Positions 35,496-53,093 of a DNA stretch of 58,242 nt are shown one piece after another (position 1 is the first letter of the stretch; the number at the start of each line of letters is the position of its first letter). The stretch spans positions 1 to 58,242 of the forward strand of contig CACDMX010000001.1 in the NCBI GenBank assembly GCA_902554035.1, read 5' to 3'. Under the pieces are notes generated by a model, which made no database searches, had not been told where the DNA came from, and saw nothing but the letters and a program-made list of their open reading frames with translations. This DNA comes from an uncultured Pelagibacteraceae bacterium. Lineage in GTDB: Bacteria > Pseudomonadota > Alphaproteobacteria > Pelagibacterales > Pelagibacteraceae. Both the position numbers and the translations under genes were made by a program.

Positions 35496-35816
35496 ATGGC
35501 AATTCAAAAAGCAAAATTTTCAATAGGCGATGTGGTAAAACATAAACACTTTGATTTCAGAGGAGTTATATATGATGTAGATTTTGAGTTTAACAATTCA
35601 GAAGAATGGTATCAATCAATCCCTAAGAATGTCAGACCAAGAAAAGACCAGCCATTTTATCATTTACTTGCTGAAAATGATGAAATTACTTATGAAGCTT
35701 ACGTTTCAGAGCAGAATCTGTTAAATGATGACTCAGATGAGCCGATCAAACATCCACTAATTAATGAGATTTTTTCTGGGAGAAAAGGCTCAACATATTT
35801 TAAACCATCTAATTAA
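35496..35816 (+). CDS. hspQ: Heat shock protein HspQ
   Basis: Hemimethylated-DNA-binding/HspQ family protein of 106 residues, in E. coli a heat-shock protein that modulates Lon specificity. Clear motifs are FSIGDVVKHKHFDFRGVIYD (about 8-27), and QPFYHLLAENDE with AYVSEQNL (about 49-72). Its presence fits the HslVU and LON-domain genes also in this window. It is followed by a 179-base non-coding region with a long hairpin. Confidence 0.94.
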   Translation: MAIQKAKFSIGDVVKHKHFDFRGVIYDVDFEFNNSEEWYQSIPKNVRPRKDQPFYHLLAENDEITYEAYVSEQNLLNDDSDEPIKHPLINEIFSGRKGSTYFKPSN

Positions 35817-35883
35817 GAGACAAGTCATTTTTTAAACACATTTACCGCAAATCTTAGACATATCATTATTTTATAATTTACAT

Positions 35884-35942
35884 TCTGATCAGGAATGCAA
35901 TTAATTCCCTTATTATTTTCTCCCTCAGCATTCTTGATCAGA
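35884..35942 (+). ncRNA. Long hairpin between hspQ and ccmC
   Basis: In the 179-base gap, TCTGATCAGGAATGC (35884-35898) pairs over all 15 bases with GCATTCTTGATCAGA (35928-35942); the only imperfection is one G-T pair. The loop is 29 bases, pyrimidine-rich. TCTTTTTAAAAAA follows. It could be an hspQ terminator with an overlong loop, a small RNA, or an element in the ccm leader. The outer arms each contain a TGATCA palindrome, so a DNA-binding site is also possible. No gene is seen in the rest of the gap. Confidence 0.5.
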
Positions 35943-35995
35943 TCTTTTTAAAAAATAATTAAAAAATCTCAATTCTTAATATATAAAACTTCAAA

Positions 35996-36703
35996 ATGTT
36001 TAATTTATTTGACTTAGGAAAAATATTCGAAATTTCTTCGAGATCTGTAAAATACGTATTTATTTTATTTATAATTGTATTGACTATTGGATTAACAGAA
36101 TCTCTTTTTTTATCACCCGAAGATTACAAGCAAAGTCATTCAGTTAGAATAATGTATGTGCATGTTCCTGCTGCTTGGATGGCACTAGGTATATTTGCTG
36201 TTATAGCTTTTCTTTCATTTGGTACATTTATTTTTAAAAATAAAAATTTTTCTTTAATATCAAAAAGTTTAGCTCCTTCAGGATTCATTTTTAATATAAT
36301 TGCATTAATAACTGGATCAATATGGGGAAAACCAACATGGGGAACCTGGTGGGCTTGGGATGCAAGAATTACTTCTATGCTAATTTTAGCTTTATTTTAT
36401 TTAATGTATTTATTGTCATGGAGAATTATTACAAACAAAAATAGTGCTAACAAAATAAGCTCTTTAATTGCAATTGTTGGAGCCATTAATCTTCCGATTA
36501 TAAAATTTTCAGTTAATTGGTGGAACACATTACATCAAGGTCCATCATTAAAAATTATGGGTGATACAACTATTCATTCCTCTATGATTATACCTTTAGC
36601 TATAATGACTGCGGCATTTGCTCTATTCTCCTTGTTAATTTTTTTGATGAAATTTAATACGGAAATGATAAGGATTAAGAGTAAAGGATTAGATAGATTA
36701 TGA
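35996..36703 (+). CDS. ccmC: Haem exporter/handling protein CcmC
   Basis: System I cytochrome c maturation protein that delivers haem to CcmE in the periplasm. The 235 residues form six membrane segments. The tryptophan-rich WWD motif reads GKPTWGTWWAWDARIT (about 109-124), and periplasmic histidines are in VHVPAAWM (about 57) and NTLHQGPSL (about 176). It is the first gene of ccmC-D-E-F-G-H here; ccmA and ccmB are not in the window. The ccmD start overlaps its stop by 4 bases. Confidence 0.96.
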   Translation: MFNLFDLGKIFEISSRSVKYVFILFIIVLTIGLTESLFLSPEDYKQSHSVRIMYVHVPAAWMALGIFAVIAFLSFGTFIFKNKNFSLISKSLAPSGFIFNIIALITGSIWGKPTWGTWWAWDARITSMLILALFYLMYLLSWRIITNKNSANKISSLIAIVGAINLPIIKFSVNWWNTLHQGPSLKIMGDTTIHSSMIIPLAIMTAAFALFSLLIFLMKFNTEMIRIKSKGLDRL

Positions 36704-40154: not shown

Positions 40155-40682
40155 ATGAAGCTAACATGTTTTAAAAAACACATTTTATTGTTTGGATTTT
40201 TTTTATTTATATTTACACCTTTAAAGGCAACAGATAATAAAAAAATTTCAAATAGTGAGCATGAAATTAATATTTTCACTGGATTGTTTGATTTTAGTGA
40301 CGATGGTAAGAGATCACAAATAATTGGTTTTCAACATCAAAATGAAAAACTTACTAGAGAAAGTTTTTTAGGTACTCTTTCACCAATTACAGGAGCTTTA
40401 ATAACACAAGATAGTGCTAGTTATTTTTACACAGGAGTTCAAGCAATGTATAAAGTTGGCAGCATAAATGTAACGCCAAGTTTCACACCTGGTCTTTATA
40501 GCCAGGGAGACGGTAAAGACTTAGGTCATATGATCGAGTTTAAAAGTGAAGTTCAATTATCTTTTGATCTACCAAAAGAGAGTCAATTTGGTTTTTCATA
40601 CAATCATATATCTAATGCAAGCCTGGGGGATAAAAATCCTGGGGCAAATAGTTATATGTTTAATTTTCTTAAAAAATTTTAG
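40155..40682 (+). CDS. PagL-like lipid A 3-O-deacylase / acyloxyacyl hydrolase family
   Basis: Predicted outer-membrane beta-barrel (175 residues) with a signal peptide (Lys start, ILLFGFFLFIF core, cut after LKA). The C-terminal FSYNHISNASLGDKNPGANS (about 149-168) closely matches the active region of PagL, which has the His-Ser pair (HxS, here HIS) and removes the 3-O acyl chain of lipid A; the protein ends in Phe, as is usual for barrels inserted by BamA. It follows ccmH by 29 bases on the same strand, without functional link. Confidence 0.82.
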   Translation: MKLTCFKKHILLFGFFLFIFTPLKATDNKKISNSEHEINIFTGLFDFSDDGKRSQIIGFQHQNEKLTRESFLGTLSPITGALITQDSASYFYTGVQAMYKVGSINVTPSFTPGLYSQGDGKDLGHMIEFKSEVQLSFDLPKESQFGFSYNHISNASLGDKNPGANSYMFNFLKKF

Positions 40683-40690
40683 AATAATTT

Positions 40691-41851
40691 ATGAGATTAA
40701 AAGATTGTCATAATTTTTATGACTTTAGAAAATTAGCTGAAAAAAAACTACCATCGCCAATTTTTCATTATATAGATGGCGCTGCAGATGATGAAATCAC
40801 TTATAAGAGAAATTCTAGTGCATTTAATGATGTTGACTTAGTACCGAATGTTTTAAGAGGTGTAGAAAATGTTGATTTATCAACAACAATTTTTGGAAAA
40901 AAAATTGATTTACCATTCTATTGTTCTCCAACAGCCCTTCAAAGACTTTTTCATTATGATGGAGAGAGAGCGGTGGGTAAAGCAGCTCAAAAATTCAATA
41001 CGATGTTCGGTGTTTCAGCTTTAGCCACAGTAAGTGTTGAGGAAATTTCCTCAATGATTGATACTCCAAAAATGTTTCAGTTTTATTTTCATAAAGATAG
41101 AGGATTGAATGACTCTTGTCTCGAAAGAGCTAAAGCAGCAAAATTTGATGTAATGGCTTTAACTGTAGATACAATAACAGGAGGAAACCGTGAAAGAGAT
41201 CTAAGAACTGGTTTTACGTCCCCTCCTAAACTAACATTATCAAGTCTTTTCAGTTTTGCTATTAAACCAATGTGGGGGATAAACTATTTAACAAAAGGTA
41301 AATTTGAATTGCCACATCTTCAAGATTATGTGAAAGAAGGTACCAGCACTAATACTTCAATCGGTAATTATTTTTCCACCATGTTAGATCAATCAATGAA
41401 TTGGAATGATGCTGAAAAATTGTGTTCACAATGGGGTGGGCACTTTGCTCTTAAAGGAGTGATGAGTGTTGAGGATGCTAAAAGAGCAGTAGATATTGGA
41501 TGCACAGGAATAATGGTATCAAATCATGGTGGAAGACAACTTGATGGTTCTAGATCACCATTTGACCAATTAGCAGAGATTGTTGATGCAGTTGGTGATA
41601 AGATAGATGTTATTTGTGAGGGAGGATTTCAAAGAGGGACTCATATGCTCAAAGCTTTATCTCTTGGAGCTAAAGCATGTGCAGGTGGTAGATTATATCT
41701 TTATGCATTAGCAGCAGCAGGACAGGAAGGCGTTGAAAGAGCTTTAGGACAATATCGTGCAGAGCTAGTGAGAGGTATGAAATTAATGGGATGTACAAAA
41801 ATAAGTGATTTAAGTAGAAAAAATCTAAGATTTAGAAAAAATGGATCTTGA
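40691..41851 (+). CDS. lldD: FMN-dependent alpha-hydroxy-acid oxidase/dehydrogenase, copy 1
   Basis: FMN enzyme of the L-lactate dehydrogenase/glycolate oxidase family (386 residues). It oxidises an L-2-hydroxy acid to the 2-oxo acid. The N-terminal FHYIDGAADDEITYKRN with catalytic Tyr, the substrate site ALTVDTITGGNRERDLR, and the catalytic His-Arg in SNHGGRQLDGSRSP (about 278-291) are clear. It overlaps the paralogue downstream by 11 bases. In a cluster with a TRAP transporter and an FAD-type dehydrogenase; L-lactate is the likely but unproven substrate. Confidence 0.93.
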   Translation: MRLKDCHNFYDFRKLAEKKLPSPIFHYIDGAADDEITYKRNSSAFNDVDLVPNVLRGVENVDLSTTIFGKKIDLPFYCSPTALQRLFHYDGERAVGKAAQKFNTMFGVSALATVSVEEISSMIDTPKMFQFYFHKDRGLNDSCLERAKAAKFDVMALTVDTITGGNRERDLRTGFTSPPKLTLSSLFSFAIKPMWGINYLTKGKFELPHLQDYVKEGTSTNTSIGNYFSTMLDQSMNWNDAEKLCSQWGGHFALKGVMSVEDAKRAVDIGCTGIMVSNHGGRQLDGSRSPFDQLAEIVDAVGDKIDVICEGGFQRGTHMLKALSLGAKACAGGRLYLYALAAAGQEGVERALGQYRAELVRGMKLMGCTKISDLSRKNLRFRKNGS

Positions 41852-42989
41852 TGATTGTCATAACTACGATGATTTTAGAAGATTAGCTAAAAAAAAATTA
41901 CCTTCACCAATTTTTCATTATATTGATGGAGGGTCAGATGATGAAGTAACATTAAGAAGAAATTCTAACTCTTTTAATTCATGTGATTTAATACCAAATG
42001 TTCTAAATGGAGTGGAAAATCCTGATCTTTCAACAATAGTATTAGGACGTAAAATAAATATTCCACTTTTTCTCTCACCTACAGCGATGCAAAGATTATA
42101 TCATCCAGATGGAGATAAAGCTTCAGCTAGAGCTGCAGAAAAATTTGGAACTTTTTATAGCATGTCAACTATGGCAAACACATCTATTGAGGAAATATCA
42201 AATATTTCAAGCGGACCTAAATTATTTCAATTATATGTCCACAAAGACAAATCAATTACTGATGATTTGTTGGATAGATGTAAAATGGCTAACTTTGATG
42301 GATTGTGTTTAACCGTCGACACTATAGTTGCTGGAAATAGAGAAAGAGATCATAGAACGGGCTTCACAACACCTCCAAAGTTTACTTTTAAAAGCTTTGT
42401 AGATTTTGCTTTAAGACCTGGGTGGTTATTTAATTATTTTACAAATAAAAAATTTGAATTATCAAATGTAAAAAACAAAACAGACAAAGGCACAAATATA
42501 ACTAAATCTGTGATTGAGTATATAAACGAACAATATGATCCAGCCATGAATTGGAAAGATGCAGAATACATCGTAAAAAAATGGAATGGTCCGTTCGCTT
42601 TAAAGGGTATAATGAGTTTAGAGGATGTAGAGCACGCAATAGATATTGGTTGTACAGCTGTGATAATATCAAATCATGGTGGTAGACAGCTAGATGGTTC
42701 ATTATCACCTTTTGACCAAATAAAAGAAATTTCAGATAAATTTGGTAATAAAGTTGAAATAATTTTAGATGGTGGAATCAGAAGAGGTACTCACGTCATA
42801 AAAGCAATTGCAGCTGGAGCAAAAGCATGCAGCTTTGGAAAGGGTTATCTTTTTAGTTTGAGCGCAGGTGGTCAAAAGGGTATTGAAAAAATGTTGCAAA
42901 ATTTGCATAAAGAAATTGAAAGGAATATGAAATTGATGGGTTGTAAAAATTTAAAAGAACTTAACTCTTCAAAATTAGTATATAGATAA
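41841..42989 (+). CDS. lldD: FMN-dependent alpha-hydroxy-acid oxidase/dehydrogenase, copy 2
   Basis: Tandem paralogue (382 residues) of the preceding gene, similar along the full length. The same catalytic segments are present: FHYIDGGSDDEVTLRRN, CLTVDTIVAGNRERDHR and SNHGGRQLDGSLSP. Substrate-region differences (for example SPTAMQRLYHPDG versus SPTALQRLFHYDG, and SMSTMANTS versus GVSALATVS) suggest the two copies differ in substrate, such as lactate versus a longer hydroxy acid. The ATG lies inside the end of copy 1. Confidence 0.93.
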   Translation: MDLDDCHNYDDFRRLAKKKLPSPIFHYIDGGSDDEVTLRRNSNSFNSCDLIPNVLNGVENPDLSTIVLGRKINIPLFLSPTAMQRLYHPDGDKASARAAEKFGTFYSMSTMANTSIEEISNISSGPKLFQLYVHKDKSITDDLLDRCKMANFDGLCLTVDTIVAGNRERDHRTGFTTPPKFTFKSFVDFALRPGWLFNYFTNKKFELSNVKNKTDKGTNITKSVIEYINEQYDPAMNWKDAEYIVKKWNGPFALKGIMSLEDVEHAIDIGCTAVIISNHGGRQLDGSLSPFDQIKEISDKFGNKVEIILDGGIRRGTHVIKAIAAGAKACSFGKGYLFSLSAGGQKGIEKMLQNLHKEIERNMKLMGCKNLKELNSSKLVYR

Positions 42990-52990: not shown

Positions 52991-53093
52991 GGTTATCGGA
53001 ATTTCCGCAAATACAGCATTTTGCGGTGTCTTTGGAAACAAAGAGATCGACACCAGTCAGCGAGGGTTCGCCCACTGGTGCGATAGCTGCTGG
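52991..53093 (+). ncRNA. Structured RNA leader of ffh (candidate cis-regulatory element)
   Basis: Pairings visible by eye: closing stem GTTATCG (52992-52998) with CGATAGC (53081-53087); hairpin 1 CCGCAAA (53005-53011) with TTTGCGG (53020-53026); hairpin 2 TGTCTTTG (53027-53034) with CAAA (53039-53042) and GACA (53049-53052), a GAAA loop and a GAGATC bulge; hairpin 3 CCAGT (53053-53057) with ACTGG (53074-53078), its inner part GGG-TTCG-CCC. Loop 1 CAGCA (53014-53018) can pair with TGCTG (53088-53092), a pseudoknot next to the ribosome-binding region. The 3' end is 8 bases from the ffh ATG. It is GC-rich against its surroundings. It lacks the conserved SRP RNA domain IV sequence, so a leader is favoured over 4.5S RNA. 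Confidence 0.72.

Follow-up and report, generated by a model that had tools for sequence, protein, structure and literature searches.

A conserved hairpin RNA with a C-rich loop follows hspQ in the sampled genera of the Pelagibacteraceae

The gap downstream of hspQ in the Pelagibacteraceae encodes an RNA hairpin that is real, under selection as RNA and present in every genus of the family that was sampled. The gap may well constitute a small-RNA gene, driven by a response regulator and acting without Hfq through the hairpin loop, a reading to which we give roughly an even chance. Since SAR11 genomes carry hardly any spacers and only a small set of regulators, a non-coding element that persists across nine genera of the family, in the loci sampled, points strongly to a function.

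In the window, by which we mean the whole stretch of 58,242 nucleotides that was analysed, the element occupies a gap of 179 nt (35817-35995) between hspQ (YccV-like; 35496-35816, + strand; TIGR02097 at 124 bits with a cut-off of 38, and PF08755) and ccmC (35996-36703, + strand; TIGR01191 at 224 bits with a cut-off of 186, and PF01578); the nearest named relatives of this ccmC are from Pelagibacteraceae. On the + strand, folding and covariation define a 5′ arm, TCTGATCAGGAATGC (35884-35898), and a 3′ arm, GCATTCTTGATCAGA (35928-35942), which enclose a loop of 29 nt (35899-35927) delimited by fold and alignment. The hairpin had been described correctly in an earlier note on this DNA, with 15 pairs including a single G-U, a 29-nt loop and TGATCA in each arm. 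Folding of the whole gap on the + strand yielded -26.6 kcal/mol (z -4.96), a value equalled by none of 200 shuffles, as compared to a z of -0.94 on the - strand, where 35 of 200 shuffles did equally well; the isolated hairpin reached a z of -6.0, again equalled by 0 of 200 shuffles. The centroid fold of the window gap contains no second stable hairpin. A search of the gap with Rfam 15 returned no match at gathering score and, at E up to 5, five sub-threshold matches only, all of them upstream inside hspQ. The earlier note had also proposed a search for the same hairpin elsewhere in the genome; the window's genome, which is 86% complete, carries a single strong copy at 76.7 bits and nothing above 19.3 bits elsewhere, a further match of 30.8 bits being the same hairpin on the opposite strand and not an extra copy.

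For the comparison within the first genus, 80 loci were chosen as best ccmC matches and all taken as members of this genus without a taxonomy check; copies within one genus are not independent of each other, and in one locus (L069) the start of ccmC was set wrong by a few bases. In all 81 loci, that is, the window and the 80 found via ccmC, hspQ lies upstream of the element, and the gap is of similar size (approximately 160-200 nt). Once near-identical copies had been dropped, 41 non-redundant hairpins were aligned. The compensatory changes that the earlier note had suggested looking for in relatives are indeed there: 98.2% of the cells in the alignment pair, and double changes occur at 13 of the 15 pairs. 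In 500 shuffles, such values of pairing and covariation never arose, and sliding the partner arm lowered the pairing to 46.9% or less. The non-Watson-Crick cells, 94 in total, comprise 83 G-U, 1 A-C and 10 others. As an RNA made from the - strand would reverse these counts, the RNA must be read from the + strand, toward ccmC. The hspQ-ccmC hairpin thus displays the excess covariation, on one strand, by which a structured RNA is recognized. The RNA options of the earlier note, a small RNA or a ccm leader, are therefore strongly supported as far as RNA in general is concerned, by the compensation, by the one-strand G-U pairs and by the conserved loop.

Loci from other genera were anchored on hspQ, since this avoids dependence on hairpin similarity; 80 genomes were used, 70 of which matched, and 40 loci were fetched, to which L119 and L120 were added via R1, a profile model of the hairpin. 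The element follows hspQ in all 33 same-family loci of eight other genera (g2-g9), most of which were found via hspQ, and in these same 33 loci CUCCCU is located about 100 nt past hspQ, between pairing arms. In the sister family, the element was seen in none of nine loci, and another gene there follows hspQ almost directly. When arms of 13 nt around CCCT were compared, 113 of the 114 copies showed pairing at 12 or 13 positions, as against 21 of 570 controls with a shuffled 3′ flank; the sole miss is L051, where the script seems to have picked a later CCCT. This test had been redone on the CCCT motif itself, an earlier stem script having also taken ATCCC-type motifs and missed L080 (UUUCCCUC). 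Among representatives of the nine genera, the arms of a given copy pair at 0.99 and swapped arms at a mean of 0.55, with some genus pairs at 0.9-1.0. Mean identity amounts to 0.83-0.86 in the promoter block described below, in the arms and in the loop motif; it is lower in the 5′ loop half (0.51), from the stem to ccmC (0.60) and from the block to the stem (0.63).

Searching R1 against 397 genomes of the order gave matches in 254 at E <= 0.01, those in G283, G057 and G067 being false. The G283 match (L121) lies inside a coding frame and was discarded, the true copy of this genome being L151; sister-family matches (L122, L123 and L142-L146) appear to represent one coding gene, on either strand, and were likewise discarded. 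Among the genomes listed, 20 of the same genus have no R1 match, several of them more than 90% complete; three unmatched genomes of this genus that were checked for hspQ (G040, G072 and G363) do not have it either. Missing assembly is a likely cause of these gaps.

Upstream of the hairpin, the alignment reveals a block on the + strand composed of four units at 11-bp spacing (GTCA.., AACAC.., GCAAA.. and GACA; 35824-35860), with C at 35826, 35837, 35848 and 35859; all four are C in 114 of 114 copies. A TATAAT hexamer (35872-35877, + strand) begins 13 nt past the last conserved C, and 111 of the 114 copies have TA at this fixed -10 place, 13-14 bases past the last C. Visual inspection had first picked out the four C positions, and the anchor used positions 14, 25 and 36; the TA was not an anchor, and the independent tests of the promoter are the C at position 3 and the -10 TA only. 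From the position of the -10 hexamer we infer that transcription starts about 7 nt further on, on the + strand at 35884, where the stem begins. Regulators of the OmpR/PhoB type bind direct half-sites at 10-11-bp spacing, the last of which is at -35, with a fixed distance to the -10. Judged by its sequence, the block has this architecture, and it is probably an OmpR/PhoB-type response-regulator promoter that starts at the hairpin and whose last unit is at -35.

Ten genomes of the family contain three to five Trans_reg_C matches each. The best class among these is PhoB, a name that NCBIfam assigns in the window's genome; a second class of response regulators reaches similar scores in all ten. 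In the five proteins read, this second class looks ChvI-like, while for the one second-class regulator tested none of the 25 NCBIfam models listed passes its cut-off. The ChvI site of S. meliloti, N-GCC-N8-GCC, shares the 11-bp spacing of our block (cited in PMC9731502), and the Caulobacter ChvI motif given in that report, TTGC-N3-GCAA, bears no resemblance to it (PMC9731502). With R2, a profile of the promoter built on sequence only, nothing better than E 0.097 was found beside phoB-class genes (about 8 kb, 10 genomes; the pst genes were not located there), and nothing better than E 0.074 beside the genes of the ChvI-like regulators.

R2 was also searched in 12 genomes of the family and two of the sister family. 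The element is its best match in 11 of the 12 family genomes and comes second, and weak, in G026 (E 0.16). The best match outside the element, at E 0.0044, is intergenic and far from hspQ in genome G005, where it is followed by a stem and by the loop motif ATTATCTCCCTC. This unlinked copy (locus L357, G005:C1:181600-182600, approximately 498-650; also fetched as L235) has a different stem, CAATCCTTTTCC / GGAAAAGGATTG, and a modest fold (z -2.2), and it is the sole second copy seen, in one genome. Of 14 lower R2 matches, 12 are within frames of at least 60 aa, with L237 outside such frames and L235 being the G005 copy itself. In 69 genomes of the first genus, TTATCTCCCTC occurs at 121 places, 106 of which were examined; 14 more coincide with places of the R1 element, and G146:C15 was left out. 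Together with the added loci L357 and L359, 108 were judged, 25 with hspQ beside the motif and 83 without it. Within these 83, 80 are located in frames of at least 70 aa, and one of the remaining three is again the G005 copy.

The most constant part of the hairpin is its loop motif, TCTCCCTC (35919-35926, + strand), which contains the invariant CCCT columns of the alignment and which we propose as a seed. Neither this motif nor the promoter block (35824-35878 with its -10) was contained in the earlier note. All 114 copies have CCCU in the loop, and 106 have CUCCCU; those eight that lack the longer form all belong to loci found via ccmC. Loop length varies, mostly between 17 and 38 nt, as does the 5′ half of the loop. 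A conserved, C-rich loop motif that is predicted to be single-stranded is what one would look for in a small RNA acting in trans through such a loop. Hfq (PF17209) was found in none of 14 SAR11 genomes, 12 of this family and two of the sister family, while the same profile does match in Caulobacter.

In the small-RNA model that we favour, a response regulator of the OmpR/PhoB family would bind the four direct-repeat half-sites at 11-bp spacing, which overlap the -35 region, with the -10 at its fixed distance. The transcript would begin at or just before the hairpin, and the RNA would consist mainly of a stem, at least 13 pairs long, presenting the C-rich loop, (U)CUCCCU, in single-stranded form. 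The stem would thereby serve as a scaffold that drifts with compensation, and the loop as the working part, which without Hfq would most likely pair with G-rich, GGGAG-like sequences resembling ribosome-binding sites in other mRNAs. Part of the transcripts may extend into ccmC. No conserved terminator was found after the hairpin, a T run being rare among 113 copies.

The genomes surveyed show no enrichment of sites that are complementary to the loop. AGGGAGA occurs 60 times in the window's own genome versus 74 times for the reversed control, and GAGGGAG before ATG occurs 164 versus 123 times in 15 family genomes, which does not amount to enrichment, given that two sister-family genomes in which the element was not seen yield 33 versus 25, an equal ratio. 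These counts lend the trans model no support. In a hand-picked set of 22 loci (20 from the listed places, favouring GAGGGAGA, plus L281 and L352), GAGGGAG stands just before a start-like ATG in six, which are to be read as leads only: glutamine-synthetase-like genes in two genera (L431 with a weak PF03951 match below cut-off, L436 without a Pfam match), SoxG, a permease of the cytosine/purine type, an alcohol dehydrogenase and a DctP solute-binding protein. GAGGGAGA, which is fully complementary to the loop core, is also found in what is presumably a 23S rRNA gene (L207, G000:C2:26482-26502). One could go further and envisage a stress-induced small RNA under ChvI-like envelope two-component control that, without Hfq, blocks, by means of its CUCCCU loop, the translation of genes for uptake and for nitrogen compounds whose start sites are of the GAGGGAG type, as a switch throughout the family; taken as a whole, we consider this scenario doubtful.

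The main competing explanation is that the ccm operon, which would run from ccmC onward with the pagL-like gene as its last member, has a regulated promoter here and a 5′ leader that includes the hairpin; the latter would then exert control in cis, either by protection of the 5′ end or through binding of a protein or an RNA to the C-rich loop. In its favour, ccmC lies about 156-188 nt past hspQ in 31 of the 33 loci from other genera, none of which had been found via ccmC, and the lack of a conserved terminator after the hairpin would suit a leader. In the two exceptions, L119 (g9) and L151 (g7), ccmC was not found within approximately 1.6 kb and 1.8 kb, respectively, downstream of hspQ; there, the element after hspQ is followed by pagL-like and lactate-dehydrogenase-like genes (PagL named by PF09411 in L119, the others by likeness). 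In the window, a pagL-like gene (40155-40682) and lactate-dehydrogenase-like genes come after the ccm block, the latter being two adjacent, similar genes (40691-42989), past the ccm/pagL block, that we take to be of the lldD type. As the next genes in L119 and L151 are those located past the ccm block in the window, the ccm block is absent at this place, and the element has been kept. The element is thus not always directly upstream of ccm genes, which speaks against a leader; the pagL-like gene, with which this gene block ends, is still downstream in both loci, however, so that a general operon leader is conceivable.

The sequence between hairpin and ccmC weakens the leader hypothesis in two further respects: it is poorly conserved, and from the hairpin to codon 20 of ccmC it contains no GGAG in 80 copies, so that the loop has no obvious cis partner in the ccmC start region. 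The unlinked copy in G005 points in the same direction. On the other hand, the ccmC mRNA is itself strongly regulated in strain HTCC1062, for which the microarray data in PMC5069961 record a 10.35-fold rise in sulfur-limited stationary phase, a 2.18-fold rise in control stationary phase and a 4.74-fold difference between the two. This rise, the strongest hint from outside our own analysis, fits a regulated promoter in the gap, provided that HTCC1062 carries the element, and the gap may then offer a possible reason for the stationary-phase rise; it suits a leader equally well as it does a small RNA with read-through. Taken together, the evidence leans toward the small RNA, and a leader is in our estimation possible but not probable. 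A TATATAA-like stretch is seen near the ccmC start in the window (35960-35995), and the same is seen in many relatives; it is possibly a separate ccmC promoter that gives a very short leader.

It is also conceivable that the C-rich loop is the site of an RNA-binding protein, with the RNA serving as a decoy or as a regulated site and no base pairing involved. A stem that drifts around a short, conserved loop motif would be compatible with this, as would the absence of enrichment among complementary sites; yet no candidate protein is known, and the C-rich single-stranded motifs of known small RNAs, as described in PMC5461406 and PMC4132741, pair with mRNAs, for which reasons we think a protein site rather unlikely. 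An intrinsic terminator of hspQ is suggested by the stable stem and the five T that follow it in the window (35945-35949, + strand), or the eight T in L002. However, tallied over the copies, this T run is not conserved, with at least five T after the stem in only 18 of 80 copies found via ccmC and 1 of 33 others, which speaks against the plain terminator that would have refuted the earlier note, and the loop, mostly 17-38 nt, is not that of an intrinsic terminator. A terminator would, moreover, leave the fixed loop motif and the promoter block unexplained, and is in our view very improbable; the terminator scanner that we used accepts loops of 3-8 only and could not report this hairpin. The earlier proposal of a palindromic DNA site for a dimeric regulator, drawn from the TGATCA in both window arms, does not hold up, with TGATCA present in both arms of 28 of 81 copies found via ccmC and of 0 of 33 copies from other genera. 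A variant, in which GATC would be tied to HspQ/YccV, could appeal to the neighbouring YccV-like gene, whose Pfam name is hemimethylated-DNA-binding protein, but both arms carry GATC in only 50 of the 81 copies found via ccmC and, again, in 0 of 33 others, and the 83 G-U cells would break the symmetry of a DNA site. Terminator, palindromic DNA site and GATC/HspQ link are all disfavoured by the cross-genus comparison, and we attach next to no probability to either DNA reading; a regulator site likely lies upstream of the hairpin instead, in the form of the 11-bp direct repeats.

Several known small RNAs share individual properties with the element. AbcR1/AbcR2 of Rhizobiales (Brucella, Sinorhizobium) are likewise alphaproteobacterial and, in the account of PMC5461406, recognize targets through a single-stranded CUCCCA in the first hairpin; they differ in having further hairpins and a second motif, whereas our element has a single main hairpin with a large loop, and we claim no homology. 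Of the two motifs that define the AbcR family, M1 (CUCCCA) and M2 (GUUCCC, between hairpins 1 and 2), the window loop has CUCCCU in place of the former, and its gap is without GUUCCC. LhrC of Listeria, as reported in PMC4132741, resembles our candidate in its UCCC target motifs, its dependence on the LisRK two-component system, its Hfq-independent effect on lapB and its sibling copies; unlike the latter, it comes from Firmicutes and has five near-identical copies of 111-114 nt with several motifs per RNA, and we claim no relation. ChvR of Caulobacter, as portrayed in PMC6237742, resembles the proposed small RNA in being alphaproteobacterial, independent of Hfq and controlled by a response regulator, in its case ChvI, but has at least three stem-loops, is described as specific to C. 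crescentus and targets chvT (PMC6237742).

Structured RNA motifs in long intergenic gaps, as is the case here, have been reported for SAR11 itself (Meyer 2009 for HTCC1062; Stav 2019 for HIMB5). The main text of Meyer 2009 (PMC2704228) does not mention ccm, and its section 10 covers other motifs. For HIMB5, Stav 2019 (PMC6429828) describes a small RNA and a further two candidates without explanation, in passages that do not name the gaps, and the hspQ-ccmC gap may be among these. Literature searches on an hspQ/ccmC small RNA and on Pelagibacter/SAR11 sRNA, structured or noncoding RNA gave, among the matches listed, no title or abstract start describing this RNA. Our results provide a concrete small RNA candidate and a promoter that are testable in cultured strains, and with them a handle on the response regulator acting there; if the reading based on the CUCCCU loop is true, it would represent a switch at the post-transcriptional level, common to the whole family, in the most abundant bacteria of the ocean. 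Elsewhere in the window, we noted a match to the ffh RNA motif (Rfam RF01793) at 53036-53088 on the + strand, with 56.7 bits.
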